From Demequina rhizosphaerae (GTDB taxonomy: Bacteria > Actinomycetota > Actinomycetes > Actinomycetales > Demequinaceae): 64,000 bases of DNA. Below, piece after piece: positions 15,775 through 62,370 of the stretch. The position numbers and the translations under genes were made by a program. The notes under the pieces were generated by a model, which was not told where the DNA came from, did not search any database, and worked only from the letters and a program-made list of their open reading frames with translations. The first letter of the stretch is position 1, and each line of letters opens with the position of its first letter. The stretch spans positions 62,001 through 126,000 of the forward strand of contig NZ_BBMC01000005.1 in NCBI RefSeq assembly GCF_000971255.1. Reading direction: 5' to 3'.

Positions 15775-15796
15775 AGACTAGAGAGGGGGTCTGACA
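15775..15796 (-). promoter_or_regulatory. RecA-NDp/PafBC-like promoter of the metallophosphoesterase unit
   Basis: On the minus strand TGTCAG, then ten bases, then TAGTCT. This matches the published damage-promoter layout TGTCRG-N10-TANNNT at every defined base. It lies 65 bases before the ATG at 15710. Confidence 0.7.
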
Positions 15797-15802
15797 TCGG
15801 GT

Positions 15803-16516
15803 CTAGCCCTCCTCGATCCACGCAAGCGCAAAGGACAGCGGGGTCGACGCGAGCACGGGTGCGTGGCACCATCCATCGTTCTGCTCGCAGTCGCAGCCAC
15901 CGTCGGGCTGGCGGAACCCGCCGGCGGCTTCCCCAGACTTCGACCGATGCGATAGCTCACGTGCTGGCGCCCAGTGCTCCGCCCTCCAGTTGTCCAACTC
16001 GACGTCGACGAGATCGCGCGTGAGCGCGCCGTCGCCGAGCGCTTGCGCGATGCCGAGCCACCGACCAGTCACTTCGACCCCGAGCTCCCGCTCCATGGGA
16101 CCCGCGGCAAGGCCGCTCGCGATCTCGCCCGCGATGACGTCAGATGCGGCGATCGCGATCTGAGCCGCAATCGCCGAACGTCGCCAATCGCCGCGTGCGG
16201 CGAGCTCGTCACGGGCGGCATTTGCGAGCCGAGGGACCTCTCGACGTTCTCGGGTGAAGAACCCTGCGATCGCCGTCGCCAGCCACCACCGTGCCCACAC
16301 CGCGTCGAACCGCTCGGGCCGGTCGAAGCCGTTGGCGGCGGTATGGCGTTCCAGGAGGCTCAGGGCGGCCTGGCTCTCCCACGCCAGCCGCAGGAGCCGT
16401 CGCCCGCAACCGTGCAGCCAGCCGGGGCGGGCGTCGCCGTAGCCGGCGGCGTCCTCGAACGCGTCGACGGCCTTGCGCAGCTTCGCGAGCTCGACGTCGA
16501 CGTGGATCGCGCTCAC
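15803..16516 (-). CDS. Unknown island protein, family with the 20027 gene
   Basis: 237 residues from a GTG at 16516 that overlaps the upstream stop (GTGA). Helical protein: AVDAFEDAAGYGDARPGW near the start, WWLATAIAGFFTRERR in the middle, and a Cys-rich C-terminus (CDCEQNDGWCHAPVL). The gene at 20027 shows the same landmarks (AYERAAGYG, FALATAVSEWLWHLELERR, C-x3-GGRC-x2-PVL), so they are paralogues. No catalytic motif recognised; the two C-terminal Cys clusters may bind a metal. Co-transcribed with the gene at 16513 from the promoter at 17767-17788. Confidence 0.65.
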   Translation of the reverse strand: MSAIHVDVELAKLRKAVDAFEDAAGYGDARPGWLHGCGRRLLRLAWESQAALSLLERHTAANGFDRPERFDAVWARWWLATAIAGFFTRERREVPRLANAARDELAARGDWRRSAIAAQIAIAASDVIAGEIASGLAAGPMERELGVEVTGRWLGIAQALGDGALTRDLVDVELDNWRAEHWAPARELSHRSKSGEAAGGFRQPDGGCDCEQNDGWCHAPVLASTPLSFALAWIEEG

Positions 16517-17736
16517 TGGGTGGGCTCCCTCTCCCACCACGGCTCGGCCGAAGGCACGTTCCACCATCCCCGGTCGGAGCGCGTCACCACGTCCATGAAC
16601 AGGTGCGCGTCGCCCCCGTTCCGGAGCCGACGCAGCGCCTCGTTCCAGCAGGCGTCGATCCGCTCGTCCCAGCCGATGATGTGCAACGTGAGCGCCGCGA
16701 ATCCGTTCTCGATCGCGACGCGCGTTCCGAGCTGGCGCGCGGTCGGCACGTCGACGCCGTTCGCGATGAGCCGCGCCATGTACTCGAGGGCCCGCTCGCC
16801 CGGATGGACGATGCTCGGGTCGGGCAGCGGCACGTCCGCAGCGTCCCCCATCCCGTCAGGCGACGGCGCCAGCCCGGCCCAGCGGAGCATCGTCCCGTAG
16901 CGGTGGCGCAGCACGGCGACACGGGCCACGTCGCTCTCCGCCAGGCCCACCGCCACCTCGCCCCCCGCGGCCGCGTAGAGGCCGCGCACCCGCGCATCGT
17001 CCACCCCCTGCGTGAGAGGAACGCCCAGTTCGACCACAAGGTCGTGGAAGATGTCGCGGCGCGCGTCGCGCGTCGCGTCACCAAGCTGCGAACCGACGGA
17101 GTAGTCCCAGTCGATGTGGATGCGGCGCTGCACCAGCAGGGGGTCGTACGTGACGCGCACGTCGTCGCGCACCCCGTCCAGCAGTACCTCGGGGTGCGCA
17201 GAGTGTCGCGGCTCCACCCCCGCGCGGTCGTCGGGGTAGCGGTGGGGGGCGGGGTCCGGATAGAGCGAGGTCGCGTGGGCGATGTCCTCCGCGGTGACGT
17301 CCCGGAACGGCTGGGTGGGCCCGCTGTCGATCACCGAAGGATCGAGGCAGGCGCCAGCCTTCTCGGCGAGCCAGGCGAGCGCCTCGGGGTTGTTGCGCGC
17401 GACGGGGCCGCGCTCGTTGAGCCACCACCAGAGGTAGGTCTCGGTGTCCTCGTCCTGGCCGAACCAGTAGTAGCACTCGTCACGGGGGCCGAAGTCCGCG
17501 GGGAACCCGTCGGCCCGGTGGACGCCGTAGCAGGGCACCATCGAGACCTGCTGGAGGTCCTTGTCGGGGTCCCTGATGTCGAACGGGATCTCACGGATCA
17601 CCGTCACCGCTTCGGGACGCGCCTTGCCGACCCCGCTGTTGCCGATCGAGCACCAGGCGCACGCCCGCACCTCGGCATCGGCCAGATGCCAGCCGTCGAC
17701 CTCACACCCCTCGAACGTGATGGCTCCCCAGGACAT
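16513..17736 (-). CDS. Unknown 407-residue island protein
   Basis: Starts MSWGAITFEGCEVDGWHLAD. The N-terminal 120 residues are rich in Trp, Tyr and acidic residues (VPCYGVHRADGFPADFG, ECYYWFGQDED, LWWWLNERGP). The C-terminal half is more helical (FHDLVVELGVPLTQGVDD; ENGFAALTLHIIGWDERID). No family recognised. The RADGFPADF stretch echoes RADPDGFAADFDHG in the small protein at 19615, hinting at a shared motif. First gene of a two-gene unit with 15803, 31 bases downstream of a damage-type promoter -10. Confidence 0.65.
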   Translation of the reverse strand: MSWGAITFEGCEVDGWHLADAEVRACAWCSIGNSGVGKARPEAVTVIREIPFDIRDPDKDLQQVSMVPCYGVHRADGFPADFGPRDECYYWFGQDEDTETYLWWWLNERGPVARNNPEALAWLAEKAGACLDPSVIDSGPTQPFRDVTAEDIAHATSLYPDPAPHRYPDDRAGVEPRHSAHPEVLLDGVRDDVRVTYDPLLVQRRIHIDWDYSVGSQLGDATRDARRDIFHDLVVELGVPLTQGVDDARVRGLYAAAGGEVAVGLAESDVARVAVLRHRYGTMLRWAGLAPSPDGMGDAADVPLPDPSIVHPGERALEYMARLIANGVDVPTARQLGTRVAIENGFAALTLHIIGWDERIDACWNEALRRLRNGGDAHLFMDVVTRSDRGWWNVPSAEPWWEREPTQ

Positions 17737-17766
17737 CGCTCCCCCTCATCTTGATGACTGCCAGCC

Positions 17767-17788
17767 AGTATGGCGAGGGGGTCTGACA
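17767..17788 (-). promoter_or_regulatory. RecA-NDp/PafBC-like promoter of the 17736 unit
   Basis: Minus strand TGTCAG, ten bases, CATACT. The -10 departs from TANNNT at its first base only. It ends 31 bases before the ATG at 17736. It is back to back with the plus-strand element at 17809-17830. Confidence 0.62.
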
Positions 17789-17808
17789 GCGTGTCCGACA
17801 TCTCGGGC

Positions 17809-17830
17809 TGTCTGCCGCCAGCGGTAGGGT
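17809..17830 (+). promoter_or_regulatory. RecA-NDp/PafBC-like leaderless promoter of the 17838 gene
   Basis: TGTCTG, ten bases, TAGGGT. The ATG at 17838 lies seven bases after the -10, so transcription should begin at or near the start codon. The R position of TGTCRG is T here. Confidence 0.62.
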
Positions 17831-17837
17831 CTCAGCC

Positions 17838-18413
17838 ATGGCTCCGTCGATCTGGTTCACGTCCGACCTGCACCTGCGCCACCAGCTCGTCGCGGACGTC
17901 CGCGGTTTCGCGTCCACCCACGAGCACGACGAGGCGATCTGCAGCGCATGGTGGAACGTCGTGGACAACGAGGACATCGTGTACGTGCTCGGCGATCTCA
18001 CGGTGCGCGCCCACGAGTACGCACTCAATCGCATCGCGACGCTCCCCGGCAGGAAGCGCCTCATCCTCGGCAACCACGACGAGGCGCACCCGATGTTCAA
18101 GGGCTACGAGCGCGCCGAGGCGCCGTACCGGGACGTGTTCGAGTCCGTCGGCACGCACGGCATGCGCACCGTCAACGGCGTCGACGCGATGCTCTCCCAC
18201 TTCCCCTACGACGGAGACTCGCGCAGCGACGATCGCGGCGTGCGGCACCGCCTGCGCGACGTTGGCGTACCCGTGATCCACGGGCACACGCACTCGAAGG
18301 AGCAGCTCACGCGCTCGCATGCGGGCACGCTGCAGGTCCATGTCGGGCTCGATGCTCACGGGTATCAGCTGGTGCCCGAGTCCTGGGTCGCGAAGGCGCT
18401 CGCCGGCGCCTAG
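17838..18413 (+). CDS. Calcineurin-like metallophosphoesterase, small phage type
   Basis: 191 residues with motifs SDLHLRH, LGDLTV, LGNHDEAHP, LSHFPYDGD and HGHTHSKE. This compact form resembles phage and YfcE-like phosphoesterases that act on small phosphoesters or nucleic acid ends. No ribosome site is present; the ATG sits seven bases after the -10 of a damage-type promoter, so it is probably leaderless. Divergent from the 17736 unit, sharing a 100-bp control region that holds two opposed promoter elements. Second metallophosphoesterase of the island, only distantly similar to the one at 14928. Confidence 0.88.
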   Translation: MAPSIWFTSDLHLRHQLVADVRGFASTHEHDEAICSAWWNVVDNEDIVYVLGDLTVRAHEYALNRIATLPGRKRLILGNHDEAHPMFKGYERAEAPYRDVFESVGTHGMRTVNGVDAMLSHFPYDGDSRSDDRGVRHRLRDVGVPVIHGHTHSKEQLTRSHAGTLQVHVGLDAHGYQLVPESWVAKALAGA

Positions 18414-18457
18414 GCCGCGGTACGGATAGCGCGGCGGTTCGTCCGGGGACGATGCGC

Positions 18458-18479
18458 TGTCCGACACCGGCGCTAGGGT
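18458..18479 (+). promoter_or_regulatory. RecA-NDp/PafBC-like promoter upstream of 18539
   Basis: TGTCCG, ten bases, TAGGGT. The R position is C. A copy of the GGGGACGATGCG repeat abuts it at 18446-18457. Transcription would start near 18486, about 50 bases before the ATG. Confidence 0.55.
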
Positions 18480-18538
18480 CACCGCAGGTAGGTGGCCGGG
18501 ACAGGAACGGCCGCCGTACGAGTGGCGAGCGGGACGCG

Positions 18539-18997
18539 ATGGTGACGCAGGTGGAGAGCCGCGATATGGAGAAGGAGAAGGTGCTCGCGCGCGTGCTGAG
18601 CTCGTCGAGCACCGTCGACTACGTCGACACCCGGGGTCGGGTGCCGCGGCGGACGCGCGCGGCGGGGGCCGGCCGTACGGACCACGGGCCGTACGACGAC
18701 TCCTGCGTCGGCCTCGACGCCGTCGAGTCGGGTCCGCGCCTGTGGGATGGGACGCGCGAGCTCTCGCGTGACGAGATCGAGACGGGCGACTCGCGGTACT
18801 GGGCGCTGCGCGTTGGCTCGCGCCACGAGTACGCCTTCCGAGTGCCCGGTTTCCTGGGGCCGGACGAGCACGGGTGGACCCAACGGGTCGCCGAACGGAT
18901 CAAGGTGATCGACGAGATGCCGCCCGGAGGTCACCGTTCCCGCGGCGCCGACGAGGTCGACTTCACCGACGGTCCGGCGGCGGGGGCGGTCGCGTGA
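18539..18997 (+). CDS. Unknown YVDTR-domain protein (copy B)
   Basis: 152 residues from the ATG at 18539; an ATG at 18566 with a better GGAGAG site would give 143. The domain reads STVDYVDTRGRVPRR, an acidic stretch, YWALRVGSRHEYAF, then HGWTQRVAERIKVIDEMP, matching copies A (12687) and C (18994) in order and spacing. The first start gives the same distance to YVDTR as copy C, which is why I prefer it. The end is Arg/Asp-rich and overlaps copy C by GTGA, so the pair is translationally coupled and may form a heterodimer. Function unknown. Confidence 0.62.
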   Translation: MVTQVESRDMEKEKVLARVLSSSSTVDYVDTRGRVPRRTRAAGAGRTDHGPYDDSCVGLDAVESGPRLWDGTRELSRDEIETGDSRYWALRVGSRHEYAFRVPGFLGPDEHGWTQRVAERIKVIDEMPPGGHRSRGADEVDFTDGPAAGAVA

Positions 18998-19428
18998 GCC
19001 CGCTGAGCCGCGTCGAGGTCCTGGTCGAGCCCGGGCTCTACGAGCTGCGTTCGGTCACGTCGACCTCGCGCTACTACGTGGACACCCGGCTCGGAACGTC
19101 ACCTCGACATCTGCGCGTCTCGGGCGTCGACAGCTTCTCGGGGCGTCTCGACTCGCGGTGGCAGCCGCTGCGACGCCTGGTCTCGCATCCTGTGCGGTGG
19201 GATGGCGAGCGATACCTCCACGACTCCGAGGTCGACGGCGCCGACAACCAGGAGTGGGTGCTCCGCGCGGGTTCGCAGCACGTGTTTCTCGCGCCCGACG
19301 ACACCCCAGGCAAGCCGCCGTTCTACTGGGTGCAGTCGAGCGCATGCAAGGAGCTGCGGAAGGTCGAGGAGCTCCCTACGGAGGTTGTCGAGTGGCTCGC
19401 GACGGTCGAGGGCGCGCCGCTCGCCTGA
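18994..19428 (+). CDS. Unknown YVDTR-domain protein (copy C)
   Basis: 144 residues from a GTG inside the stop of copy B. The whole protein is one domain: PGLYELRSVTSTSRYYVDTR, a variable middle with SRWQPLRRLVSHPVRWDG, EWVLRAGSQHVFLAP, then a YWVQSSA helix ending KVEELP. Compared with copy A, PGMYRIRTESTAVYYVDTR and the VLRVGSRHEYI block align without gaps. No signal peptide or membrane segment. The conserved Arg and His after the WVLR strand are candidates for an active or binding site. Confidence 0.65.
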   Translation: MSPLSRVEVLVEPGLYELRSVTSTSRYYVDTRLGTSPRHLRVSGVDSFSGRLDSRWQPLRRLVSHPVRWDGERYLHDSEVDGADNQEWVLRAGSQHVFLAPDDTPGKPPFYWVQSSACKELRKVEELPTEVVEWLATVEGAPLA

Positions 19429-19455
19429 GCACCGCGCCGAGCCACGGGAGGGCCC

Positions 19456-19477
19456 TGTCGGACACCACCGGTATGGT
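19456..19477 (+). promoter_or_regulatory. RecA-NDp/PafBC-like promoter upstream of 19615
   Basis: TGTCGG, ten bases, TATGGT: a full match to TGTCRG-N10-TANNNT. Transcription would start near 19484, in front of the short ORF at 19496 and the gene at 19615. Confidence 0.68.
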
Positions 19478-19495
19478 CGGGATTGTTGGGAGTAC

Positions 19496-19555
19496 GTGAA
19501 CGAGAGAGGACACGGGATGAGCCAGCAAACGCTGACATTCGGGTGCTTAAGATAG
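19496..19555 (+). CDS. Short ORF, possible leader peptide
   Basis: GTG start at 19496 (or ATG at 19517 after GAGAGAGGA), ending in TTA AGA TAG; 19 residues finishing MSQQTLTFGCLR. A TTA codon is rare in such GC-rich DNA. It lies just after the damage-type promoter and before the 19615 gene, so it may be a leader peptide or the stump of a broken gene. Confidence 0.3.
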   Translation: MNERGHGMSQQTLTFGCLR

Positions 19556-19614
19556 CCCGATCGCGAGCGCCAAGGCGGCGTTCAGACTTCCCGGGCTGCC
19601 GGAAAGCAGCGAAC

Positions 19615-19944
19615 ATGTCCCGGACAGACAAGGACCGTCCTCAGTGGGTGCGCGCCCAGGATCCCCTGGAGCGCCGCCTCACGGCGCACCAGTGCACACC
19701 GGCCTCGTGCCGGATCGACCTGCCCGCGCGCTCGCGCGTCGAGTGGTGGGGCCACGGATGCATGTACTACGTCGCTTCGAGCAAGTGGCACTGGGGCCGC
19801 GTCACGCACCGTGCCAAGGAGCGCGCACGTGTGCGCATGTACACCCACGCCGCGGTCCGGTGGCATCGCGCGGATCCGGATGGCTTCGCCGCCGACTTCG
19901 ATCACGGCCCCCACGTGCCCTGGCGTGACTACTGGATGGACTGA
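19615..19944 (+). CDS. Small unknown Trp/His-rich protein
   Basis: 109 residues from the ATG at 19615, with GGAAAG before it. It contains HQCTPASC, VEWWGHGCMYYVASSKWHWG, RADPDGFAADFDHG and a WRDYWMD end. The Cys, His and Trp content suggests a small metal-binding or nucleic-acid-related domain of phage flavour; no named family recognised. It shares a DGF(A/P)ADF motif with the 16513 protein. Transcribed from the full-match damage promoter at 19456-19477. Confidence 0.6.
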   Translation: MSRTDKDRPQWVRAQDPLERRLTAHQCTPASCRIDLPARSRVEWWGHGCMYYVASSKWHWGRVTHRAKERARVRMYTHAAVRWHRADPDGFAADFDHGPHVPWRDYWMD

Positions 19945-20026
19945 CGCTCGATGCGCGGCGCGTCGGGCGATCGAGCCTGGCGCGCTGCGGACGAGCATCC
20001 GAGAGCGACGGCGTCCGCGCCGCCAT

Positions 20027-20839
20027 TCACACGAGAAGGTCGGTCCACGGAAGCACGGGCAGCAAGCATCGACCGCCCTGGTGTCTGCACTCGCTGCCCT
20101 CGTCGCGGATGAGGCGCGCGGTGTCCAAGGCAGCGAGACCCGCTCCCAACGCCGCTACGTCGACGGGCCGATTCTGGTCCACCGCAACCTTGAGCTCCGC
20201 CAACGCGACCGCCATCGCGTGCGCTTGTGTCTCGCCGAGGCCGAGCTCGAGGTGTGTGTCCCGAGCCGCGGTCAGATCCTCGAGCACGCGCTCAGCACGG
20301 ACGTACTCATTCACCGCGCGTGCTGCCTCTCGCCACCACCCCGTGACCGACAGCAGGGTGGCCTGCTCGGTGGGCGCCGCGAGATCGCCTGCGATCTGCC
20401 CATAGATCGTGCGGGAGATCGCCTCGCTCACGCGAAGCGCAACCTCGCGACGCCCGCCGTCCGCTGCGTCCCCCTCGACCTCGAAACCCCACACCGCGTC
20501 GTCTGCGAACTCCTCGACGAGGTCCTCGCGAGTCGTCGGAACATCTCCACGCCGCTCGAGCTCAAGGTGCCAGAGCCACTCGCTGACGGCCGTCGCGAGC
20601 GCGAATTTCGCGGCGTCCCCCGGCGGCGCTTCGCAGAAGCACGCCTGGAGCCACGCCACGGACGGCTCGGTCCAGCGCAACGCATCGGCCACCTCCTCAA
20701 GCACGACCCCGCACGCCGAGAGCCGTCCCTCGGTGCCCGGCCGCCCGTAGCCCGCGGCTCGCTCGTAGGCCGCCACGGCCACAGCGACCGCTGCGAATTG
20801 CTCAGCCGTCGGGTTGGTGCTGAAGTTGTCCTCGTTCAT
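20027..20839 (-). CDS. Unknown island protein, paralogue of the 15803 gene
   Basis: 270 residues from the ATG at 20839 (MNEDNFSTNPTAEQF). Mostly helical. Landmarks shared with the 15803 protein: AAYERAAGYGRPGTEGRLSA near the start, LATAVSEWLWHLELERR, and the Cys-rich end ECRHQGGRCLLPVLPW. The middle is acidic (DLVEEFADDAVWGFEVEGD). No catalytic motif. No damage-type promoter is seen directly upstream, unlike its relative; the 100 bases before it hold nothing distinctive. Confidence 0.65.
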   Translation of the reverse strand: MNEDNFSTNPTAEQFAAVAVAVAAYERAAGYGRPGTEGRLSACGVVLEEVADALRWTEPSVAWLQACFCEAPPGDAAKFALATAVSEWLWHLELERRGDVPTTREDLVEEFADDAVWGFEVEGDAADGGRREVALRVSEAISRTIYGQIAGDLAAPTEQATLLSVTGWWREAARAVNEYVRAERVLEDLTAARDTHLELGLGETQAHAMAVALAELKVAVDQNRPVDVAALGAGLAALDTARLIRDEGSECRHQGGRCLLPVLPWTDLLV

Positions 20840-20938
20840 CGTGCCCCTCGTTGTCTCAAGATCCCCACGTGCTTCTCGGCTGAGCCACGCGCACACGCAC
20901 GTCGGTACCCGTGAAGCGCCGAGCGAAAGCGGTGGCGC

Positions 20939-21367
20939 CTAGACGAACCGGCTGTCGGCCACGAGCTTGTCTCGCGCACCCTTGAGCCCGACGACCACCC
21001 GGAAGAGCAGGTCAGGGACCGTGCACCGTTCGATTCCGGCAAGCAGCGCGATCGCCGTCAGGTCGGCGGCGTTGACAGCATCGACGACTTCATGGGTCTT
21101 CGTGGGAAGCGGCAGTCGGGCCGCGTGGATGAGCTCGTCGAGCTCGACGACGTCGACGATGTCGGTCACGTCTTCGACCCACATGAGCAGCTCGACGATG
21201 ACATCGCGTCGACGCAGTTCCGAGGTGCGATCCGACAACGCCGTCGACGAATCCTCGCCGCACTGCAACACCGCGTCAATCGCCTGAGCCACCGCGATCT
21301 CGGCGGCGGGCTTCTCGAGCCCCTCCCCAAGAGCCGTCTGCTTCCGCCAGTTCCACCAGAACGTCAT
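20939..21367 (-). CDS. Unknown helical island protein
   Basis: 142 residues starting MTFWWNWRKQTALGEGLEK. Predicted mainly helical and acidic (VIVELLMWVEDVTDIVDVVELDELIHAARLP would be two amphipathic helices). A single Cys in IERCTVPDLLF. No family recognised. GAGAGGGG ribosome site. The ATG lies 31 bases after the -10 of the damage-type promoter at 21398-21419, the same distance as in the 17736 unit. Confidence 0.6.
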   Translation of the reverse strand: MTFWWNWRKQTALGEGLEKPAAEIAVAQAIDAVLQCGEDSSTALSDRTSELRRRDVIVELLMWVEDVTDIVDVVELDELIHAARLPLPTKTHEVVDAVNAADLTAIALLAGIERCTVPDLLFRVVVGLKGARDKLVADSRFV

Positions 21368-21397
21368 GCCAAGCCCCTCTCAGCGATGTGTGCGCCA

Positions 21398-21419
21398 AGC
21401 ATGCCCGAGGGGTCTGACA
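21398..21419 (-). promoter_or_regulatory. RecA-NDp/PafBC-like promoter of the 21367 gene
   Basis: Minus strand TGTCAG, ten bases, CATGCT. The bases around it (GACGCG before, ACCCC after TGTCAG) closely repeat those at 15796 and 17788. Confidence 0.6.
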
Positions 21420-21504
21420 CCGCGTCCAAGAAAGAGCGCGAGCGCACCAGTCCCCCCTGATGCGCCGCAGAACCGCGCGCCGACGTCACCTCGCGCTGGT
21501 GCCG

Positions 21505-22431
21505 CTACGCGTCGCGAGCACCAGCATCGAGCACGTGCGTAGTCGCAACTCGCGCCTCAGCAGCGCCCGGCAACGTCGGCGCGCCCTCTGCCTGGTCAGT
21601 CACCTCACGCAGCACGATCCACAGGTCACGCAGGGAGGCGTCGGAGGCGATTCCGTGCTCCTCGATCCCGACGACTCGCCACGCGCGCGGGGCGAGCAGC
21701 ACGTCGGCCGGCACGAAGAACGGCTGTTTGTCCCGTCCGATGTACTTGCCGTAGCGGGGTCCCTGGAAGAGGTAGCGGATCACGGGCTGCTTCATCGCGG
21801 CGACCTCGACGAGCGATTCCGGCGCGGGTCCGTAGTTGTCCGACTGATGGTCAAAGACCGCCGGGTCGAGCATTGTGCGAATGGTCTGATCGAACGCGAG
21901 GTCATCGCCGATGCGCAGGCCGCGGATCTGTTCAATCCGTGCCGCGGTCGTCGGGATGCTCGGGTGCGGGGTCTCCGTGTAGTGGAGGTAGACCTCGACC
22001 CCGTCCATCTGCACAACACCGTCGCTGTCGGGCGTCAACGACTGGAGATAGGCCTCGTCCTCGTCGTACTTGACCATGTCGTCTAGCGCGCATGCTTTGG
22101 TGCCCTGCTGGGCCTGCCACACGCAGTCGAAGGTCCCGTTCTTGTCGCCGCCGAGTCGCGGCGCATACGCCTCGACGAGCGCCTGGACCGCCTCGGACGG
22201 GAGGTCACCGTACAGCCCCGCGTCCGCCCGCACACCCTTCATGCGCCCGACCTCCGCGACCAGGTCGTCCCACGCGACCTGGATCTCAGGCGACGGCGCC
22301 GCCTCGCCATGGTCATGGCCGCACGTGCACTCCAGCACCGGACGATGCACGGGGCACCGAAGGCGCCCCCGTCGCGTCAGGTGGAACCCGGCCAGGGACC
22401 TGCACCCGGATCGGCGCTTGGACTCGGTCAC
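21505..22431 (-). CDS. Unknown 308-residue island protein with N-terminal Cys/His cluster
   Basis: GTG start at 22431 with GAGGGAG five bases upstream. Residues 10-40 carry a Cys/His cluster (GCRSLAGFHL, LRCPVHRPVLECTCGHDHGE) that probably binds zinc. The rest is unrecognised: DGVVQMDGVEVYLHYTETPH, AVIRYLFQGPRYGKYIGRD-like stretch and ADVLLAPRAWRVVG, suggesting a beta-rich C-terminal domain. The second half reads like a small ligand-binding fold. No damage-type promoter in the 60 bases upstream. Confidence 0.6.
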   Translation of the reverse strand: MTESKRRSGCRSLAGFHLTRRGRLRCPVHRPVLECTCGHDHGEAAPSPEIQVAWDDLVAEVGRMKGVRADAGLYGDLPSEAVQALVEAYAPRLGGDKNGTFDCVWQAQQGTKACALDDMVKYDEDEAYLQSLTPDSDGVVQMDGVEVYLHYTETPHPSIPTTAARIEQIRGLRIGDDLAFDQTIRTMLDPAVFDHQSDNYGPAPESLVEVAAMKQPVIRYLFQGPRYGKYIGRDKQPFFVPADVLLAPRAWRVVGIEEHGIASDASLRDLWIVLREVTDQAEGAPTLPGAAEARVATTHVLDAGARDA

Positions 22432-22494
22432 GCGAACTCCCTCAAGAACGACATCCGCAACGCCAACCTTGGGGGACGGGCTGCGTCCAGCGAC

Positions 22495-23358
22495 TCACGG
22501 GTTCGGATGGAGCGTCAATGCGAGGGCCAGGGCCTCAGGCTCGACACTCCCCGCAGCAAACCCGATGGCACCCGCAGCAACAAGCGCCTCCCACGCGCCA
22601 TCGTTCATGGGGTCGAGCCGCATTTCCCCCCGAATCGAGCTGTCCAGGTAGTTGCGGTTGACGAACCAGCGAGACTCGTCCATGCGAGTGCCCTCCAGCC
22701 AGTACTCTCCCAGTCCCGCAGTGAGGTTGCCTGCGAACCCAAATTGGCGGCGGGCCGCCTCCACCGTCGAGTGCCGCGCCCCTCGCTCCCAATACTCGTC
22801 GGGTCCGTGCGGGAACCCGTTGTAGCCCGACGCCGCTCCAGTGATACGAGTCCGCAGATCGTTGAGCTGATTAGGGTATTCAACCGCGGGCTTGCCACCC
22901 CCACGGTGGCGCACGCCGTCGAGCCAGTACTCGCGGACACCGTCCGCAAAGTACCGTGCTGGCTTTCCCCCCGAGCGCGAACGCTTCCCATCGACCCAGT
23001 ACTCCTCAAAGGACTGCTCGCACGGCAGCCCGCCCTTACGCACCGCGGTTCCGGTGCTGTCGAGCTTCGGATAGCTACTAGAACCGTCCGGCACGACCCA
23101 CATAACTCGCGCACCTGTTGGCCTCGTCCGCAACACGGCGGGACTGTCGTTACCCCGATGCAGTTCACCGTGACGAAACCAGTATTTGTCGCCGTTGTCG
23201 CACACGACTGCGGGAAGGTCTCGATCGCGGTGATACCGCCCGTGAGCGTCGAGCCAGAATCGCTCCCCGGAGTTGATGGCGTAGTACGAACCGTCCGGCG
23301 AGATGGTGTCTTCAGCACCTGGACTCATCAAGAAGGCCAACTCGGGCCCCATAGGCAT
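22495..23358 (-). CDS. MORN-like repeat protein (WxDGxxHRxGGKPA repeats)
   Basis: 287 residues from the ATG at 23358, chosen for its AGGAGA ribosome site; the frame is open to 23421. It contains at least five degenerate repeats of about 22-28 residues, for example FWLDAHGRYHRDRDLPAVV, YWFRHGELHRGNDSPAVL, YWVDGKRSRSGGKPARY and YWLDGVRHRGGGKPAVEY. Such Tyr-Trp-x-Asp-Gly/His-Arg repeats occur in phage, giant virus and bacterial proteins and fold as beta hairpins; their role is unclear. The C-terminal 40 residues are hydrophobic and Ala-rich. GC is lower than the flanks. Confidence 0.65.
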   Translation of the reverse strand: MPMGPELAFLMSPGAEDTISPDGSYYAINSGERFWLDAHGRYHRDRDLPAVVCDNGDKYWFRHGELHRGNDSPAVLRTRPTGARVMWVVPDGSSSYPKLDSTGTAVRKGGLPCEQSFEEYWVDGKRSRSGGKPARYFADGVREYWLDGVRHRGGGKPAVEYPNQLNDLRTRITGAASGYNGFPHGPDEYWERGARHSTVEAARRQFGFAGNLTAGLGEYWLEGTRMDESRWFVNRNYLDSSIRGEMRLDPMNDGAWEALVAAGAIGFAAGSVEPEALALALTLHPNP

Positions 23359-23729
23359 GCTTTCTCCTAGTGTTCGCGCCTGGTGCAATCCGTCGCCAAC
23401 GCTATCGACACGCGCTGACATTGCACGACCTCAAGGCTTCGTTCTCGGCTCGGCGGCAGTAGTAGTTGGGTCTAAACGTTGACGGCTACAGCGCCCGAGC
23501 CGTGTGCGATCTGGCGGCGAGCGGCTTCCTCGCGCGGCGGAGGTGGTCGATCCCGAGGTTCACACCGTCCCGCACGAGTGAATATCGGTTCGGCGTCATC
23601 TTCGCCACAGTGACCGGCAACCAGCGGCACCGCGATGGCAGCAGCGGGCGCAGTCTTCGGCATCTGCCACGTCCATCTGCGAAGCCGTCGCTTCCCGGCC
23701 CTTCGGGCGCCGACCGATCAACGACTTGC
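23359..23729. other. Gene-free stretch
   Basis: 371 bases between the repeat protein and the HEPN gene. Short frames read as shadows. No tRNA, terminator or repeat is evident. It includes the probable promoter of the 23358 gene (TAGGAG near its start is more likely ribosome site than -10). Confidence 0.4.
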
Positions 23730-24377
23730 TCACTCCACGACGGGATAATGGACAGGCCCCCAGTTCTCACCGGGGTGGTCCATGAGCGTCGCGACGATGA
23801 GCGGCACGAGGCGACCCAGCACTGCCGCACAGTCGCGCACCTGGTCTCGGTTGAGCTCCCCGTTCCAGGTGGCGCCACCATGCACGAGCTGGTTCCTGAG
23901 CGTGCAAAGTCGATGGACGACGATCTGGAGGAGCACCTCCGTGTCCCCTTCTCCGAGCGCGCGCTCAGCGGCACGCCGCGATCCTTCGAACTGACGCCTG
24001 TACTCGTCCTCTTCGATGCGTCCGTTGCGCCAGTCCCAGAACGGCTGGAACACGTACTGGTTCTCGAGTAGGACACGCACGCTGCCGGGGAACTCCTGCC
24101 AAACGAGTTCGCCGAATCGCTTGCCGTCGACGCGGCACAGCTGCCCGAGGAACGAGTGGAGCCGCTCGCGCTCACTCTGCGAGCCGTCGCCGGTCAGGTC
24201 CTGTGCGTAGGCGGCGTTGAACGCAACCCACAGGAGCATGAACTGCAGGTCCTTGTCGTCGCTCGACCGCTCAGCGCGGTCGAGCCAGCTCAACGCACGA
24301 TGCACTCGCAGTGTGAGCGACGTCGGGTACCCGACCCGCTCAGCGCGGTGGCGCGCCTTCAGGCTTGCATAGTCCAT
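23730..24377 (-). CDS. HEPN-domain protein
   Basis: 215 residues, almost all helical. The C-terminal part has the HEPN signature RNQLVH (Arg-x4-His) inside TLRNQLVHGGATW, preceded by FMLLWVAFNAAYAQDLTGDG, which is typical of the Apea-like HEPN group. HEPN proteins are often RNases in toxin-antitoxin and anti-phage systems. The gene begins 30 bases after the stop of the RecB-like nuclease/helicase gene, with a GGAAGGA ribosome site, so the two are probably one operon. Target and trigger unknown. Confidence 0.78.
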   Translation of the reverse strand: MDYASLKARHRAERVGYPTSLTLRVHRALSWLDRAERSSDDKDLQFMLLWVAFNAAYAQDLTGDGSQSERERLHSFLGQLCRVDGKRFGELVWQEFPGSVRVLLENQYVFQPFWDWRNGRIEEDEYRRQFEGSRRAAERALGEGDTEVLLQIVVHRLCTLRNQLVHGGATWNGELNRDQVRDCAAVLGRLVPLIVATLMDHPGENWGPVHYPVVE

Positions 24378-24407
24378 CGCTGCAGTTCCTTCCGCTCCGA
24401 GTACGGA

Positions 24408-27400
24408 TCACACCAGGGCGGACGCTGCGGACGCGGCCACGGCGCGCGTGTCGCCGGAAACGGATAGCCCCGACTCGCAGAGCCTCACGAACGCACCGAG
24501 CTCGACGAATGGCTCCGGCGTCGTCGGGATGGCCGCCGTCAGACTCCGCGAGCGGACGATGACCGCGAGCCACTGCGCGCGCGACACCGCAACATTGGTG
24601 CGATTGCGCTCGATGACGAAGCAGAGCCCCCGTGGAGACTCTGCGGGGGACGACGTCGCCGTCGTCAGGATCGCCACCGGCGCCTCGCGGCCCTGGAAGC
24701 GGTCCACGGTGCCGACCTCGATCTGCTCGTAGCCTGCCTTCGCGAGGCGATCCCGGACGAGCCCGACCTGAGCGTTGAAGGGGGCGACGACCAGGATGTC
24801 GCCCTCGCCGATAGGCCTCGTCGTCTCGCCGTCGAACCAGTCGCGCCCGATGACTCGTTCGACCTGCCGGACGACCGCATCGGCCTCCTCGACCGACGAC
24901 GTCGCGTTGCCGGCGTGATCGAGCATGACCACCTCGAGGCCGGGCCCGATCCCTTCGAGCCGCCGTGCGTCGGTCGAGGGCGCGGAGTGGAGCTTCCCTC
25001 GGTACGACAGCCGCGAGACCGGCGCCGTGACTGCGCTGTGCATCCGGTAGGTGGTGTCGAGCAGGTAGCCGCGGCGCTCGGGCACGAGGCCGTCCTCCGC
25101 CACCCACGACAGCGCCGACTCGTCGACATGCTCGGGGTGCGTCGCATGGCTCACCTGGCCGAGTTGCTGCGGGTCGCCGAGCAGCAGGAGCCTCGCTGCG
25201 GCTCGTCCCGCTGCGATGGTGAACGCGAGCGAGTACTGGCCGGCCTCATCGACCACGATCAGGTCAAGCTCCTCCGCATCGAGCTTCGCGAATCCCCAGG
25301 CCGTTGCGCCGATGACGTAGCCACCCTGTGCGGGGCGCTTGTCGATCTTGTCGAGCCAGGTCCAAGGTTCGACGTTCTTGGGCCCTCCGACCTTGAACAC
25401 CTGGGCCTTCGCGTCGATGTCAGGCAGCTTCGCGACGTCCTTGAGCATGTTCTCGACGGTCGAGTGGCTCTGACCGACCACGCCGACGCGCCAGCCGTGC
25501 TCGACGAGCGCGGCGATGACGCGCGAACCCGTGTACGTCTTTCCCGTTCCCGGCGGACCCTGCACGGACACGCAGGACGATGCGGGCGCAAGGGCGTCGA
25601 TGATCGCGCCGGCGTAGTCGTGCCCGGCGACCACCGGAAGCGCTGCATCGGCTCGGCGCAGAAGGGACAGCGCCGCGGACTCTCCACACGCGCCGATCGC
25701 GCCGTACGCCGCGAGGGCCCGCGCGGCGACCTCGCGGACGGCGTCCTGGACCACCGTCGCGTCGGGCGGCGAGCCCGGCACGATCGCGAGCGGCCGGTCG
25801 GACCAGCCCTCCGGAGCCAGTGCCGTGTCGGCGCGCTCGGTCAGGCGCAGGACCGTGAGCGGGCCGCGCCGCTCGATCCACGGCTCGCCGTCGTCGTCGG
25901 TCGCGAGGCTGAAGGAGCCGCCGCCGGTCGCGTACTCCGCGAGGTCGGGTGCCCACGAGCCGGGATGATCGGTCCCGCCCGGGTACATCGACTTGATCGA
26001 GTCCAGCTTGGCTCCGGCGGGGAGATCGACCTCGGCCTCGAGCACGCGCGTGAGCTTCTTGCCTGTCTTGGTCCTGGTGGCGTCGTGCCACTCCTCGACC
26101 ACCCCAACGCTCACGAACGGGATGTGCTCACGCGACTCGCCCCACTCGTCGATCGGTGTCTGGAGCCGACCGATGAGGTCCTGCCAGTAGACCTTCTTCT
26201 CACGATCGGCGTACTCCGCGGCGGCGCCCAGCATCGCGAGCGCTTGGAGGTCTGCCGATCGGGCCGAGACCCCGTGCTCGTCGTCGTGGGAATCCACGAG
26301 ATCGCGGATCTGGTCGACGACGGACGGCCCGACAGAAATCTCGGCTTCTACCGCATCGTCCTTGGACTCGCGGGGAGCCCGCTCCACGGGCGCCACGTAC
26401 GGCATCGACGACTCGGCGGCCCGCAAGCGCAGCCAGGCATCGAGCTCGAGGGTCGAGACGCAGTCGTACTCGTTGTAGTCGGCGATCCCAGCGAGCAGCC
26501 GATCGGCCACCTCTGTGTGCCCCGCCTCGACGGCGGCACAGTAGTCGGCGTACACGTTGACCGACGTCGCCGCGTCAGTGACTTCACCCGTGCGAAGGTG
26601 GTCGCCCATGTACAGCGGCTCGAGCTTCTTGATCGAGTAGGACGGTGCCGAGATGCGCAGGCTGCCGCGCACGACGGGCAGCAGGTCGACGAAGACCCCC
26701 TCGCGCAGCAGCCTGTCCACCACGTCCTCACACACCTGGTGGCGCATCGCGATCGAGAGCAGATGCGTCTTCTCGTATGGCGCGTAGTGATAGACGTGCA
26801 TGTCGGGGTACGCCGAGCGGCGCTCCTCGACGAAGGCGATGAAGTCCTTGAGGGCCCTCTTCTCCTGGCGCAGGTCGTGGGCCCAGAACGCGGTGAACGG
26901 CGGCGCAGCGCCCTCCGCCTCGGGCCGCGTCACCAGGCCGAACAGGTAGTCGATGCCCCACTCGCCCGTGTCCGTGGACTGCCACAGCGGGTCGCCTTCG
27001 AAGTCGAAGTAGACGTCGCCCGCCGAGGGTGTGGGCAGCGCGTCGATTCGGCTCCGGCTGATGAGGCTCCAGCTGAGGTGGTGGGTCTCGTCAGCCTTGA
27101 CGTACGCGACCGTGCCACCGTCCGGACCGAGGGGCGCGGCACCCTTCTGCATCGCGGCCTGGAATCGCAGGTTCTCGAACGTCTCCCGGCTCATGCCGGC
27201 TGGGGCGTCGGTCGCGGCTGCAAGGTCGGCAGCGGTGGTGAGACCCGCGGCGTGGAGCTTCGCGCGCTGCGGACGACGGAGGTTGGCGACCTGAAGCAGG
27301 TCGTCGTTGGCCTCGATGGCATCCTCGCAGTACGCACACGTGCCGCAGATGGCGATCGCGTAGTCGCCCCAGGCGACCGGCGCTTCGGTGACCTCGTGAG

Positions 27401-28121
27401 ATGCCATCGTGGCCTGGAAGCGTGCCATCGCGGCCCGCGAGACCGCCTCGACTTCTCCGAGCGCGAAGTCCTCGTACTCCCCGGTACCGAGGATCACGCG
27501 CGCACTGTCTCCCAAGGCGACACCGGCGTCGCGCAGGACCGCGGCGTAGGAACCGATCTGCAGCAGGGCCGAGGTCTTGACGTGGCGCGCGACCTTGGAG
27601 TCGGCGACGACGTAGCGCGGCTTCGCGTCCGGCGTCCACTCTCCGCGCGCGACGTCCTCACGGAGCAGGAAGTCGGCGAAGCCGTGAAAGCCGTCCTTCA
27701 TGACGGTTGCCTGGTAGACGATCGCCGCTCCGGCCTCAAGCGCTGAGAGTGAAACCCTCGCGGCTGCGGCGAGCTCGTCCGCCGTCGGACGGCGTTCGTC
27801 GGCGCCTGCCTCGATGGCGACGATGCGCGACGCGACATCAGCGGGCAGCGTTTCGTCGTCGCCTGGGCGCCACGTCCGCACGACAGCTTCCTCGGCCAGA
27901 CCCGTGGCCTCCGCCAGCGCGTCCCGCATGTCCATGAGAACGTCGGCCTCGTGAAGGTCGCCGAGTGCACCGGCACGCTCGAGCATCGCGTCCGCCTCAG
28001 CCTCGAGGCGCGGCGAGCGACCGCGTACCTCGTCGAGGCGGCGCAGCGTCGCGTACTCGCATTCGGCGGCGCGCACAACGTCGGAGGCGCTCCACATCAT
28101 GGTCTGTCCTGCCAGGTACAT
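24408..28121 (-). CDS. TM0106-type RecB-like nuclease fused to DNA2/NAM7-type SF1 helicase
   Basis: 1237 residues. N-terminal third: RecB-like nuclease with YVVADSKVARHVK (Asp and the (D/S)xK hairpin), QIGSY and a Cys cluster (CGTCAYC) of the iron-sulfur type. Middle: an RNase H-like YprB domain with VYFDFEGDPLW (DEDD Asp/Glu) and ADYNEYDCVSTLELDAWL. C-terminal 450 residues: SF1 helicase with QGPPGTGKTYTGSRV (Walker A), LIVVDEAGQYSLA (Walker B), YRMHSAV, VDRFQGREAPV and NRTNVAVSRAQ. Probable role in DNA end processing or defence. Starts at 28100 (AGGA six bases before) and 28121 are both possible. Co-oriented and close to the HEPN gene. Confidence 0.88.
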   Translation of the reverse strand: MYLAGQTMMWSASDVVRAAECEYATLRRLDEVRGRSPRLEAEADAMLERAGALGDLHEADVLMDMRDALAEATGLAEEAVVRTWRPGDDETLPADVASRIVAIEAGADERRPTADELAAAARVSLSALEAGAAIVYQATVMKDGFHGFADFLLREDVARGEWTPDAKPRYVVADSKVARHVKTSALLQIGSYAAVLRDAGVALGDSARVILGTGEYEDFALGEVEAVSRAAMARFQATMASHEVTEAPVAWGDYAIAICGTCAYCEDAIEANDDLLQVANLRRPQRAKLHAAGLTTAADLAAATDAPAGMSRETFENLRFQAAMQKGAAPLGPDGGTVAYVKADETHHLSWSLISRSRIDALPTPSAGDVYFDFEGDPLWQSTDTGEWGIDYLFGLVTRPEAEGAAPPFTAFWAHDLRQEKRALKDFIAFVEERRSAYPDMHVYHYAPYEKTHLLSIAMRHQVCEDVVDRLLREGVFVDLLPVVRGSLRISAPSYSIKKLEPLYMGDHLRTGEVTDAATSVNVYADYCAAVEAGHTEVADRLLAGIADYNEYDCVSTLELDAWLRLRAAESSMPYVAPVERAPRESKDDAVEAEISVGPSVVDQIRDLVDSHDDEHGVSARSADLQALAMLGAAAEYADREKKVYWQDLIGRLQTPIDEWGESREHIPFVSVGVVEEWHDATRTKTGKKLTRVLEAEVDLPAGAKLDSIKSMYPGGTDHPGSWAPDLAEYATGGGSFSLATDDDGEPWIERRGPLTVLRLTERADTALAPEGWSDRPLAIVPGSPPDATVVQDAVREVAARALAAYGAIGACGESAALSLLRRADAALPVVAGHDYAGAIIDALAPASSCVSVQGPPGTGKTYTGSRVIAALVEHGWRVGVVGQSHSTVENMLKDVAKLPDIDAKAQVFKVGGPKNVEPWTWLDKIDKRPAQGGYVIGATAWGFAKLDAEELDLIVVDEAGQYSLAFTIAAGRAAARLLLLGDPQQLGQVSHATHPEHVDESALSWVAEDGLVPERRGYLLDTTYRMHSAVTAPVSRLSYRGKLHSAPSTDARRLEGIGPGLEVVMLDHAGNATSSVEEADAVVRQVERVIGRDWFDGETTRPIGEGDILVVAPFNAQVGLVRDRLAKAGYEQIEVGTVDRFQGREAPVAILTTATSSPAESPRGLCFVIERNRTNVAVSRAQWLAVIVRSRSLTAAIPTTPEPFVELGAFVRLCESGLSVSGDTRAVAASAASALV

Positions 28122-28452
28122 CTGCCTCCTCAGTCATCGCAGTGCGGCTACTGCCGTACCGTGCGTCGCAGCGGTGCGATCGTGCCAGACGGACCGGGTC
28201 CGTCACCAGACCCTTACCCGGTTTGCCCCTGTAGACGCAGAGTCCACGATTCAACTGACTGAGCAGCGCAACCAAGTGCACCGATCGAGGCGCGTCTCTT
28301 CAAGGAAATGTCAGGCAATGACATTAGTCTCTCGATTCGCGATGCAACGGTTACACCGCGGTCTGTCGCCAACTCGAGCACTATGCGGATCCACCGGAGG
28401 TACGAGACGGAGGACGCGCAGATCAGCAGCCCGCTGAGAGGAAACGTCAAAC
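28122..28452. other. Gene-free divergent region
   Basis: 331 bases between the divergent helicase and 28453 genes. GAGGAGG lies just before 28121 on the minus strand and GAGAGGAAA before 28453 on the plus strand. No damage-type promoter element is found, and no repeat or RNA gene is seen. Confidence 0.45.
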
Positions 28453-29943: not shown

Positions 29944-30084
29944 CGGGGGCCCAGCCGCGCCACACTCGCCACCAGAACGGACGCCACGCTCCTGTCGTCG
30001 GGGTGCGGTACGTTCGCACGACAGTCCCTGCCGGTGCGGCTCGCGCTCACCTCGCATCCAAACCCGACATTGTAAGGAGCGGCA

Positions 30085-30942: not shown

Positions 30943-31078
30943 GCGCCGCGCGGTCGCGTGGCTCCATCATCGCAGACATGCGGGCGGCTTCCGTCACGGT
31001 ATGAGGGGGCCCGATCCTGACGCTCTTCCGTGGACACCTGATCTGAGACGATGATCGTCTTGGAAGGGAGTTCCACGA

Positions 31079-31363: not shown

Positions 31364-31383
31364 GGTTCCGGCTCGTCCAGGAG

Positions 31384-32235: not shown

Positions 32236-32420
32236 TCAACACACCACCCGTGTCCACGAGACCGGGTCAGGCTCCGGATGAAGTTGTGGCGTGCACGGCC
32301 TGACGAATGCGGCAGCCTTGGTGGAGGGCCCACGACACAGTCTTGGTGCGATCAGCTGATCGCTCTGTCGATCCGCGGACCCATCAACACGCTTGGATGA
32401 CGTGATGGTCCCCGACGGGG

Positions 32421-48034: not shown

Positions 48035-48760
48035 CTACGCCTGCGCGAGACGCAGCTCGACGCTGTCGACGCGCTGCGCGACCACGTTGGAGCGCGCGAG
48101 GTCGTGCTGGACGCGCTCGACGACCGCGTTCACCTCGGGCTGCGTGAGGCCCGCGACCAGCCGCAGGACGATCGCGACCTCGGCGCCGCGGCCCGCGACC
48201 GCGTCGACGCCGCGCAGCGCATCGTCCAGCGCGACGGCCTCGGCGACGGCCGCACGGATGTCGTCCGCGACCTCGCCGTCGACGACCGCGGGGCGCCACG
48301 GCTCGCCCTGCCCGAGCGCCCACACCGCGGGGCGCGGGATGAGCACGGTCTCCATGCCGGGGTTGAGCACGAGCGCGCTCCAGCCCTCCGCGACCGCGGC
48401 GAGCGCCGCGCGCGGGCCCTCCGCGGGGATGGGGCGGGCGCGCTCGCTCCACGCCTTGACGGCGTCGACGTCCGTGAACACGGGCAGCGCGGTGCGGCCG
48501 TCGGGCATCTCGACCGCGACGACGCCGGTCGAGGCGACCTCGTCCTGCTCGAGCCCGTGCTTGCCGACGACGCGCTTCTCCCCCGACGCCATCACGGGGA
48601 TGAGCACGCGCGCGTAGGCGAGCGCGTCCACGACGTCGGCGAGCGGCGTCTTGCCGTGCGAGAAGCGGATGAGGGCCTGGGCGAGGCGCGCGTCGGCGCT
48701 GCCGTCGTCGTCCGAGAAGATCGACTCCGGGATCTCCTTGCGGGGCTCGTCGTCGCTCAT
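48035..48760 (-). CDS. SseB-family protein
   Basis: 241 residues from the ATG at 48760 (MSDDEPRKEIPESIF). The SseB domain spans about 25-150 (LAQALIRFSHGKTPLADVVDA, LPVFTDVDAVKAW, ALVLNPGMETVLIPRPAVWA), and a second helical/beta region follows with VAIVLRLVAGLTQPEVNAVV. SseB proteins are widespread in actinobacteria and have no established role here despite the name, which comes from a type III secretion chaperone. Position next to hisA is common. Confidence 0.85.
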   Translation of the reverse strand: MSDDEPRKEIPESIFSDDDGSADARLAQALIRFSHGKTPLADVVDALAYARVLIPVMASGEKRVVGKHGLEQDEVASTGVVAVEMPDGRTALPVFTDVDAVKAWSERARPIPAEGPRAALAAVAEGWSALVLNPGMETVLIPRPAVWALGQGEPWRPAVVDGEVADDIRAAVAEAVALDDALRGVDAVAGRGAEVAIVLRLVAGLTQPEVNAVVERVQHDLARSNVVAQRVDSVELRLAQA

Positions 48761-48791
48761 GGGTCCCAGCCTAGAGGCAGGCGCCGACCGT

Positions 48792-54547: not shown

Positions 54548-54569
54548 TGTCGGTGTCCCGCCCTACCAT
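54548..54569 (+). promoter_or_regulatory. RecA-NDp/PafBC promoter of recQ, leaderless
   Basis: TGTCGGTG, eight bases, TACCAT: matches every base of TGTCRGtg-N8-TANNNT including the tg. The ATG of recQ at 54576 lies six bases after the -10. Confidence 0.8.
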
Positions 54570-58632: not shown

Positions 58633-58745
58633 GGCACCAGCGTCGCCCACTTCCCCGCAGGAGTCGAGGGTCCGCCGGGGGCCTCGCCCGGCTCCCCGTG
58701 GCGCGGCGAGGACGCGGCACCGGTGCGGGGCGTGCCCCGCCCCGG

Positions 58746-61700: not shown

Positions 61701-62288
61701 GAGGCCGTGGTCCATGAGCTCGACGTAGTACGCGTCCTTGCCGAAGATGTCCTGGAACTCCGCGGCGGCCTTGAGCGCCTCGTCGTACTGGCCCAGGCGC
61801 AGGCGGGTCTGCACCTCGCCCGACGGGCAGCCGGTGGTCGCGATGATGCCCTTGGAGAAGCGCTGCAGGAGGTCGCGGTCCATGCGCGCCTTGTAGAAGT
61901 GCCCCTCGAGCGACGCGTAGGACGCGAGGCGGAACAGGTTGTGCATGCCGGCGGTGTCGCGCGCCCACATCGTCGCGTGCGTGTACGCGCCGCCCGAGCT
62001 GACGTCGTCCTGCTCCTGGCCGCGCTCGCCCCAGCGCACGCGCGTGCGGTCGCCGCGGGCCGTGCCGGGCGTGAGGTACGCCTCGAGGCCGATGATCGGC
62101 TTGACGCCCGTGGACTGCGCCTTGTTCCAGAACTCGTAGGCGCCGAAGAGGTAGCCGTGGTCGGTGGTGGCGATCGCCCGCTGGCCGAGGCGCTCGGCCT
62201 CGCTGAAGAGGTCCCCGATCTTCGCCGCTCCATCCAGCATCGAGTACTCGGTGTGGACGTGGAGGTGGACGAAATCCTTGCCGGGCAT
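58746..62288 (-). CDS. dnaE: DNA polymerase III alpha subunit
   Basis: 1180 residues from the ATG at 62288. N-terminal PHP domain (FVHLHVHTEYSMLDGAAKIG), polymerase core with catalytic Asp residues in FDIDFDERRRGEVIQYV, helix-hairpin-helix region and a C-terminal OB domain (QITFAGLVTRVDRRIAKSGN). Length and intact PHP indicate the replicative DnaE1 rather than the mutagenic DnaE2. It carries a matching RecA-NDp-type element and an ATG seven bases after the -10, so it should be damage-inducible and leaderless. An upstream in-frame ATG at 62405 lies beyond the promoter and is rejected. Confidence 0.96.
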   Translation of the reverse strand: MPGKDFVHLHVHTEYSMLDGAAKIGDLFSEAERLGQRAIATTDHGYLFGAYEFWNKAQSTGVKPIIGLEAYLTPGTARGDRTRVRWGERGQEQDDVSSGGAYTHATMWARDTAGMHNLFRLASYASLEGHFYKARMDRDLLQRFSKGIIATTGCPSGEVQTRLRLGQYDEALKAAAEFQDIFGKDAYYVELMDHGLDIEKRVFEDLLRISKAIGAPLVATNDLHYTRKEDAKAHEALLCVQSGSTLNEPTYDQGGKRFAFSGDGYYVKSSEEMWDLWGDYPEALTNTLAIAEQCEVEFNTKADYMPVFDCPPGEDEHSWFVKEVQKGLHERFGPEIPAHVQERANFEIEVIAGKGYPGYFLVVADFIQWAKDNGIRVGPGRGSGAGSMAAYAMKITDIDPIVHQLYFERFLNPERESKPDFDIDFDERRRGEVIQYVTDKYGQERVSMIVTYGTIKAKQALKDSTRVLGKPFSLGEQLTKAYPEAIMGKDMPLIGVTDTAHARHHEGQDFRALLEQDPEAQQVFELAQGLEGLKRQWGVHAAGVIMSSDPLIDIIPIMRREQDGAVITQFDYPTCETLGLVKMDFLGLRNLTILDDALENIVDNGKEPLVLEDLPLADDGTFDLLARGDTLGVFQLDGNAMRQLLRQMRPDSFEDISAVLALYRPGPMGMNSHTNYAERKNGRQEIVPIHAELDEPLKEVLGITYGLIVYQEQVQRIAQIVAGYTLGAADLLRRAMGKKKKEILDKEFEPFKNGALERGFSLEAINALWSTMLPFADYAFNKAHTAAYGVLSFWTAYLKAHYPTEFMAALLTSVGTDKDKSALYLAECRRMGITVLPPDVNESKATFAAVGGDVRFGLTAVRNVGSNVVAEIVKARTEKGAFTSFADFLDKVPATVCNKRTIDSLIKAGGFDSLGYSRRALNAVHEQAIDSVIGVKRQEATGQFDLFADAGDLGGGVTVEVPTLDEWDKKTKLNLERDMLGLYVSDHPLSGLDHVIRQEATHQILNATPANGVQEGSQITFAGLVTRVDRRIAKSGNPYAIVTLEDMTGETEVSFFSKTYETYARDLAEDAVIAIKVRGRERGDGGLQFSAIDVRIPNLNVTDNSPVAITVPAARVTPPLVEQVKGILRSHPGSIEVRMVLTGPDKPLTMRLGDEFRVARSSALYGDLKAALGPSCLSGV

Positions 62289-62295
62289 GGGGATG

Positions 62296-62317
62296 ATTCT
62301 AGGAGGCCCGGCCGACA
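62296..62317 (-). promoter_or_regulatory. RecA-NDp/PafBC-like promoter of dnaE, leaderless
   Basis: Minus strand TGTCGG, ten bases, TAGAAT: full match to the consensus. Seven bases separate the -10 from the ATG at 62288. Confidence 0.75.
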
Positions 62318-62348
62318 GCGAGGGGACGATGCGGCGGCCGGTCGGGAG

Positions 62349-62370
62349 TGTCGGCGCGAGTTGGGAGAAT
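62349..62370 (+). promoter_or_regulatory. RecA-NDp/PafBC-like promoter of hrpA, leaderless
   Basis: TGTCGG, ten bases, GAGAAT (first -10 base differs). The GTG start at 62377 follows after six bases. Divergent from the dnaE promoter with 31 bases between the two elements, containing one GGGGACGATGCG repeat. Confidence 0.6.

Follow-up and report, generated by a model that had tools for sequence, protein, structure and literature searches.

Do two short hexamers set exactly ten bases apart, TGTCRG and TANNNT, mark DNA-damage promoters in Demequina rhizosphaerae, and why should several of them stand before island genes of unknown function? The question arises in a 64,000-nucleotide (nt) stretch (hereafter the window; C11:62001-126000 of the 3.03-Mb genome G000, 15 contigs), in which a sequence-only reading had picked out ten such places and likened them to the mycobacterial RecA-NDp promoters controlled by PafBC. 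The comparisons made here support assignment of these sites to PafBC, as judged from their sequence. With good confidence, we take them to be RecA-NDp promoters at which sigma A and the host PafBC would drive both a repair core and a variable island, most of which should then be switched on by damage without LexA.

All ten places do carry TGTCNG, ten bases, and a TANNNT-like hexamer. TGTCRG-N10-TANNNT was scored throughout, with the reversed pattern as control and zero mismatches defined as exact; the four said to match completely (15775, 19456, 54548 before recQ, and 62296 before dnaE) are exact, and the remaining six differ as described, by one base (17767, 17809, 18458, 21398, and 62349) or two (40298). 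Three exact sites had been overlooked, at 10842(-), 23399(-), and 28309(+), for a window total of seven. With up to one mismatch there are 17 matches, against 5.87 expected (standard deviation 2.53) from 100 shuffles, none of which reaches 17; part of the 17 are intragenic (12204, 29830) and may be chance. A score matrix built from 29 exact genome sites outside the window ranks 15775, 23399, 54548, 10842, 17809, 18458, 62296, 19456, and 17767 high.

Enrichment is strong genome-wide, and many of the sites lie upstream of repair genes: there are 36 exact matches, vs. two of the reversed pattern. Spacers of 7, 8, 9, 10, 11, 12, and 13 bp yield 1, 1, 3, 36, 0, 2, and 2 matches, so that enrichment is found at 10 only. 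Counts exceed the reversed control in all 44 genomes of the genus set, by the smallest margins in G038 (22 vs. 17) and G037 (16 vs. 9). Thirty-three of the 36 sites lie outside genes, according to a simple gene caller; of the other three, two (L002, L036) probably owe this to a gene start placed too far upstream, and L034 is inside a methylase gene. At 19 of the 36, an ATG follows the -10 hexamer at 6, 7, or 8 nt (13, 4, and 2 cases; background 0.35 per offset at 10–69 nt), a spacing that suggests leaderless transcripts and agrees with the transcription starts, 6–8 bases past the -10, that the sequence-only reading would require. Within the island, a start codon is this close only at the phosphoesterase gene MPE2 (ATG, 7 nt) and at 19483 (TTG, 5 nt). 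If the ATG is taken as the transcription start, TGTCRG spans roughly -28 to -23, in keeping with the -26 element of the literature; this element and the activation of PafBC by single-stranded DNA (ssDNA) are described in extracts of PMC11804915. The M. tuberculosis PafBC motif, given in extracts of PMC8151990 as TGTCGG or TGTCAG-10N-TA-3N-T, is the same pattern.

The genome also encodes the regulator, which the sequence-only reading had proposed to look for. Tandem pafB and pafC, coding for two adjacent WYL proteins, lie between hisG and tatC (L031/L032, C13:293437-297556); pafA was not seen alongside them in the stretch read between these two genes. The first protein matches the PafB chains of PafBC structures (7p5x, E 5.5e-41; 6sj9, E 9.9e-31), and the second carries HTH_PafC (E 1.4e-17). 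In a comparison of 149 genomes from the order, those with strong HTH_PafC matches (n = 125) have a summed motif-to-control ratio of 6.0, vs. 2.2 for those with weak matches (n = 15) and 1.1 for those with none (n = 9). Most of the first group (108/125) have at least twice the control count with at least 10 sites, and seven of the nine genomes without HTH_PafC have no more than 1.6 times the control; the nine are not independent cases, because seven belong to one family (f4). Enrichment thus mostly follows HTH_PafC, with exceptions in both directions. One genome with strong HTH_PafC, G056, has no exact motif at all, and its PafBC may read another sequence.

Several core targets had been described as repair or replication genes, and family-model matches downstream of the sites bear this out. 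Genes with exact sites include recA, uvrB, dnaK, clpX, and recQ; radA, a DEDD-exonuclease/UvrC-like protein, and ogt match above family-model cut-offs, and rarA-like and ftsK-like targets below them. Further targets are SbcD, an AlkZ-like protein, a PD-(D/E)XK protein, and dnaE, and there are non-repair targets as well: an MMPL-like transporter, a hydrolase, and several of unknown function. Of the eight relatives in which the dnaE start could be located, seven keep the site exactly and one differs at a single base; for recQ, six of eight relatives have an exact site, the other two having one and two mismatches. The hrpA site at 62349 is graded weak, being exact in none of seven relatives and within one mismatch in two. 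Conservation of 40298 is uninformative, because its flank is equally unchanged in the two relatives with the gene found. The recA gene has an exact PafBC site (C11:177230) close to an exact SOS box (C11:177318), which indicates that this genome has both systems.

A few other sites may be recorded here. A one-mismatch sequence at 48768-48789(-), GGTCGG...TAGGCT, lies 7 nt before the ATG of 48035-48760 and has a high matrix score. An exact site at C10:37122 (L008) precedes by 6 nt the ATG of a small gene pair, by eye similar to a toxin-antitoxin module. Another, at C13:141662 (L021), is 52 nt before a cysteine-rich open reading frame (ORF) of 66 amino acids (aa), divergent from the DEDD exonuclease gene. 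Comparable paired sites are present in D. iriomotensis (G008), G023, and G024.

The island lies in a variable hotspot (7694-32477, 24.8 kb) between a sodium-dependent transporter gene (6086-7693) and pheT; in 25 genomes of the genus this interval is between 1.9 and about 30 kb long. Judged by pheT, the nearest relatives are G010 and G015 (98 and 96%). They share the left part (7.7–10.05 kb) and a PLD gene, and their hotspot intervals contain no match to the 12.6–32.3 kb region. In D. iriomotensis this hotspot contains a related island, with 65–84% protein identity for MPE1 (a metallophosphoesterase), 14372, HAD, 15803, 16513, MPE2, 18994, 21505, and the helicase; 18539 (40%) and 20027 (30%) are less similar. 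Since the flanking transporter is 87% identical between the two species, ancient shared ancestry followed by losses elsewhere is just as possible as transfer. Features of the island and its surroundings are collected in Table 1.

Table 1. Putative PafBC-type sites and island features, in window coordinates.
Feature	Position	Strand	Remarks
Exact site, 35 nt before ORF 10312-10806 if TTG start	10842-10863	-	Gene caller starts ORF further down
Island proper, approximate ends	12600-32300		Related island at same hotspot in G008
Protein with C-terminal "YVDTR" domain (name coined here), shared with 18539 and 18994	12687-13664	-	
HAD_SAK_2 domain protein	13794-14375	-	
MPE1, calcineurin-like metallophosphoesterase	14928-15710	-	Predicted fold nearest Dbr1, then Mre11 and others
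Exact site, 64 nt before MPE1	15775-15796	-	Exact at same place in G008
407-aa protein	16513-17736	-	Single non-self match in protein database
One-mismatch site (CANNNT -10), 30 nt before 16513-17736	17767-17788	-	Variant CATACT -10 kept in G008
One-mismatch site (TGTCTG), MPE2 ATG 7 nt past -10	17809-17830	+	G008 there: TGTCGC...TACAGT
MPE2, phosphoesterase	17838-18413	+	phrog_547 match
One-mismatch site (TGTCCG), 59 nt before 18539-18997 and 18994-19428	18458-18479	+	Exact consensus in G008
Exact site, 5 nt before TTG of ORF 19483-19944	19456-19477	+	Or 170 nt before GTG 19648
One-mismatch site (CANNNT -10), 30 nt before 20939-21367	21398-21419	-	Low matrix score
Exact site, 40 nt before 22495-23358	23399-23420	-	
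TM0106-type RecB-like nuclease fused to IGHMBP2-like helicase	24408-28121	-	
Exact site, 122 nt before CorA-like gene 28453-29943	28309-28330	+	Low matrix score
496-aa protein, CorA-like C-terminal region	28453-29943	+	
Weak one-mismatch site, 70–130 nt before ORF 30085/30145-30942	29993-30014	+	
IS3-type transposase, pheT end of island	31199-32235	+	Second frame by Pfam, first by eye
Weak site (2 mismatches), 6 nt before ATG of DUF222-HNH gene 40326-41825	40298-40319	+	
Exact site, 6 nt before recQ ATG	54548-54569	+	
Exact site, 7 nt before dnaE ATG	62296-62317	-	
Weak site (1 mismatch, GAGAAT -10), 102 nt before called start of hrpA	62349-62370	+	Poorly conserved

Exact sites are concentrated here: the hotspot has five of the genome's 36, vs. 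0.29 expected from the genome mean, four of them in the island proper. The related interval in D. iriomotensis has eight (0.36 expected), and the two together 13 (0.65 expected). A similar picture emerges from leading genes, defined as those with an upstream same-strand neighbor at least 40 bp away or an opposite-strand neighbor, and counted as positive if a site with at most one mismatch lay within 200 nt on the correct strand. By this rule 9/15 island leading genes have a site, vs. 3/22 (recQ, dnaE, and hrpA) elsewhere in the window, beyond the hotspot (Fisher P 0.005); the four resident hotspot genes, as called, have none. D. iriomotensis has sites at matching positions before MPE1, 16513, MPE2, and 18539, an exact site before its distant 20027 homologue, and another 68 nt upstream of the nuclease-helicase gene, whose best upstream site in D. 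rhizosphaerae has two mismatches. The site at 15775 probably heads MPE1, 14372, and the HAD gene, and perhaps 12687; the 10842 site falls outside the island proper, to its left, within ~0.9 kb of sequence that G015 lacks. On the excess of exact sites and the conservation of aligned promoters in D. iriomotensis, the claim that six sites serve island genes holds; that the island is damage-inducible, as was also proposed, is a prediction.

Several observations weigh against so simple a reading. Six of the 15 island leading genes, the helicase among them, have no site by the rule above, and several island sites are off by one base. The matrix scores 21398, 28309, and 62349 below 9, a range reached by chance sequences, and ranks 12204 and 29830 (both intragenic) and 48768 high, none of which the sequence-only reading had named. 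Enrichment is marginal in the remaining 23 hotspot intervals (6 vs. 2.6), and just two of 10 MPE1 relatives at other genus loci (L040, L042) have an exact site directly upstream. The densest 25-kb stretch of the D. rhizosphaerae genome is on C14 (six sites) rather than in the island (five); over 20 kb the two are equal at five exact sites, part of those on C14 being at core genes such as sbcD. In the order, 10 of the 125 genomes with strong HTH_PafC, including G056 with its zero sites, have no more than 1.6 times the control, and G100 and G167 are enriched without a PafC hit, the latter a 580-contig assembly.

A second dense group of exact sites, at C14:89910-98160 (L093), is near unknown genes and an Eco57I-type DNA methylase, and is possibly another PafBC-linked accessory segment.

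Third-position GC (guanine plus cytosine) content is 0.74–0.92 for most island genes, vs. 0.95–0.99 for most core genes. Among 10 proteins scanned with PADLOC models, matches are partial throughout: to MkoA and others for the helicase, a CorA-like match, and a DrmC-like one for the PLD protein. Named records with MPE1 relatives are from D. iriomotensis, D. lignilytica, and D. globuliformis. The small "YVDTR" domain occurs in three copies (12687-13664, 18539-18997, and 18994-19428) and among named sequences only in Demequina; its predicted fold is confident, with no clear PDB or BFVD match. From the Dbr1/Mre11-like phosphoesterase, the HAD phosphatase-type protein, and the nuclease-helicase, the island's role is most likely nucleic-acid processing or defense.

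If events follow the mycobacterial model, ssDNA build-up would lead PafBC to engage sigma A and open these promoters, with TGTCRG as the -26 element and TANNNT as the -10 element used by the polymerase. The regulon would then consist of the usual repair core plus the variable island, where about eight units each appear to be headed by a PafBC-type promoter; a joint response of most of the island to damage, free of LexA, is then expected. Motif enrichment, spacing, start-codon geometry, the presence of pafBC, and conservation of island promoters in a second species are observed; activation by damage would follow by extension from these sequence features. PafBC might conceivably even serve as an infection alarm, ssDNA from invading or damaged DNA arming in trans a multi-operon island, with its enzymes for processing nucleic acids and its membrane protein, as a LexA-independent defense with no regulator of its own, but we consider this doubtful.

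Other explanations fare less well. The island could be a decayed phage or satellite, with damage induction serving its own mobilization and the phosphoesterases as phage genes. MPE1 relatives are found in 297 of 50,697 phage records (36.6–44.6% identity among the 20 matches listed), and both MPE1 and MPE2 match PHROGs. However, Pfam scans of island proteins and a PHROGs search with 10 of them found no integrase, structural, or packaging genes, only the IS3 transposase; a limited look for direct repeats at the island ends, with 10-mers only, does not favor a phage either. Of 12 island proteins tested (the helicase being outside the 12), none was found in the 89 IMG/VR loci that surround MPE relatives, and the motif there is at chance (13 vs. 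11 reversed). A phage or satellite origin seems unlikely. It is less likely still that the hexamers are ordinary sigma-A promoters, or sites for another regulator, with PafBC uninvolved. ClgR was once proposed for this motif (in extracts of PMC5656591), and enrichment is absent in some genomes with strong PafC, but the strict 10-bp spacing from TGTCRG and the co-occurrence of the motif with HTH_PafC argue otherwise, as does the PafBC-linked expression of M. tuberculosis genes with this motif (extracts of PMC8151990).

Control of the island by LexA is very improbable: recA shows that an SOS system is present alongside PafBC, but a window scan with the SOS box consensus TCGAAC-N4-GTTCGA found no box with zero or one mismatch, and the seven with two are all outside the island. 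It is equally improbable that the island sites are chance matches in GC-rich DNA: about six matches are expected in the window with one mismatch allowed, but the excess of exact sites, the leading-gene counts, and the promoters conserved in D. iriomotensis all speak against chance.

With PafBC-type promoters as the preferred explanation, the Demequina system can be set beside known ones. It resembles the mycobacterial PafBC/RecA-NDp regulon in its -26 element, 10-bp spacing, -10 element, and overlapping repair targets, and in a recA gene that combines a PafBC site with an SOS box; it differs in its host, in the position of pafBC between hisG and tatC with no pafA seen in the stretch read there, and in having an accessory island in the regulon. 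In BrxR and CapW, to judge from extracts of that literature, WYL-domain regulators are likewise tied to phage-defense islands. BrxR/CapW-type regulators are encoded together with their defense genes, whereas the present case would have a chromosomal activator working in trans. Mobile islands and prophages under SOS control also tie accessory genes to DNA damage; unlike in these, no SOS box with zero or one mismatch was found in the window, and control would be by activation rather than derepression.

The promoter class is already known, and such a regulon in Demequina is unsurprising. What is new is that most units of an accessory island have PafBC-type promoters, conserved in a second species; in the titles and abstract openings listed, literature linking PafBC to islands, prophages, phage, or defense describes no PafBC-controlled island. 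Core repair genes are the known targets of PafBC, and the island would show that variable cargo can come under the same activator. It has been kept in two species though some intervening genes differ, and its unknown genes would gain a defined, testable inducing signal.

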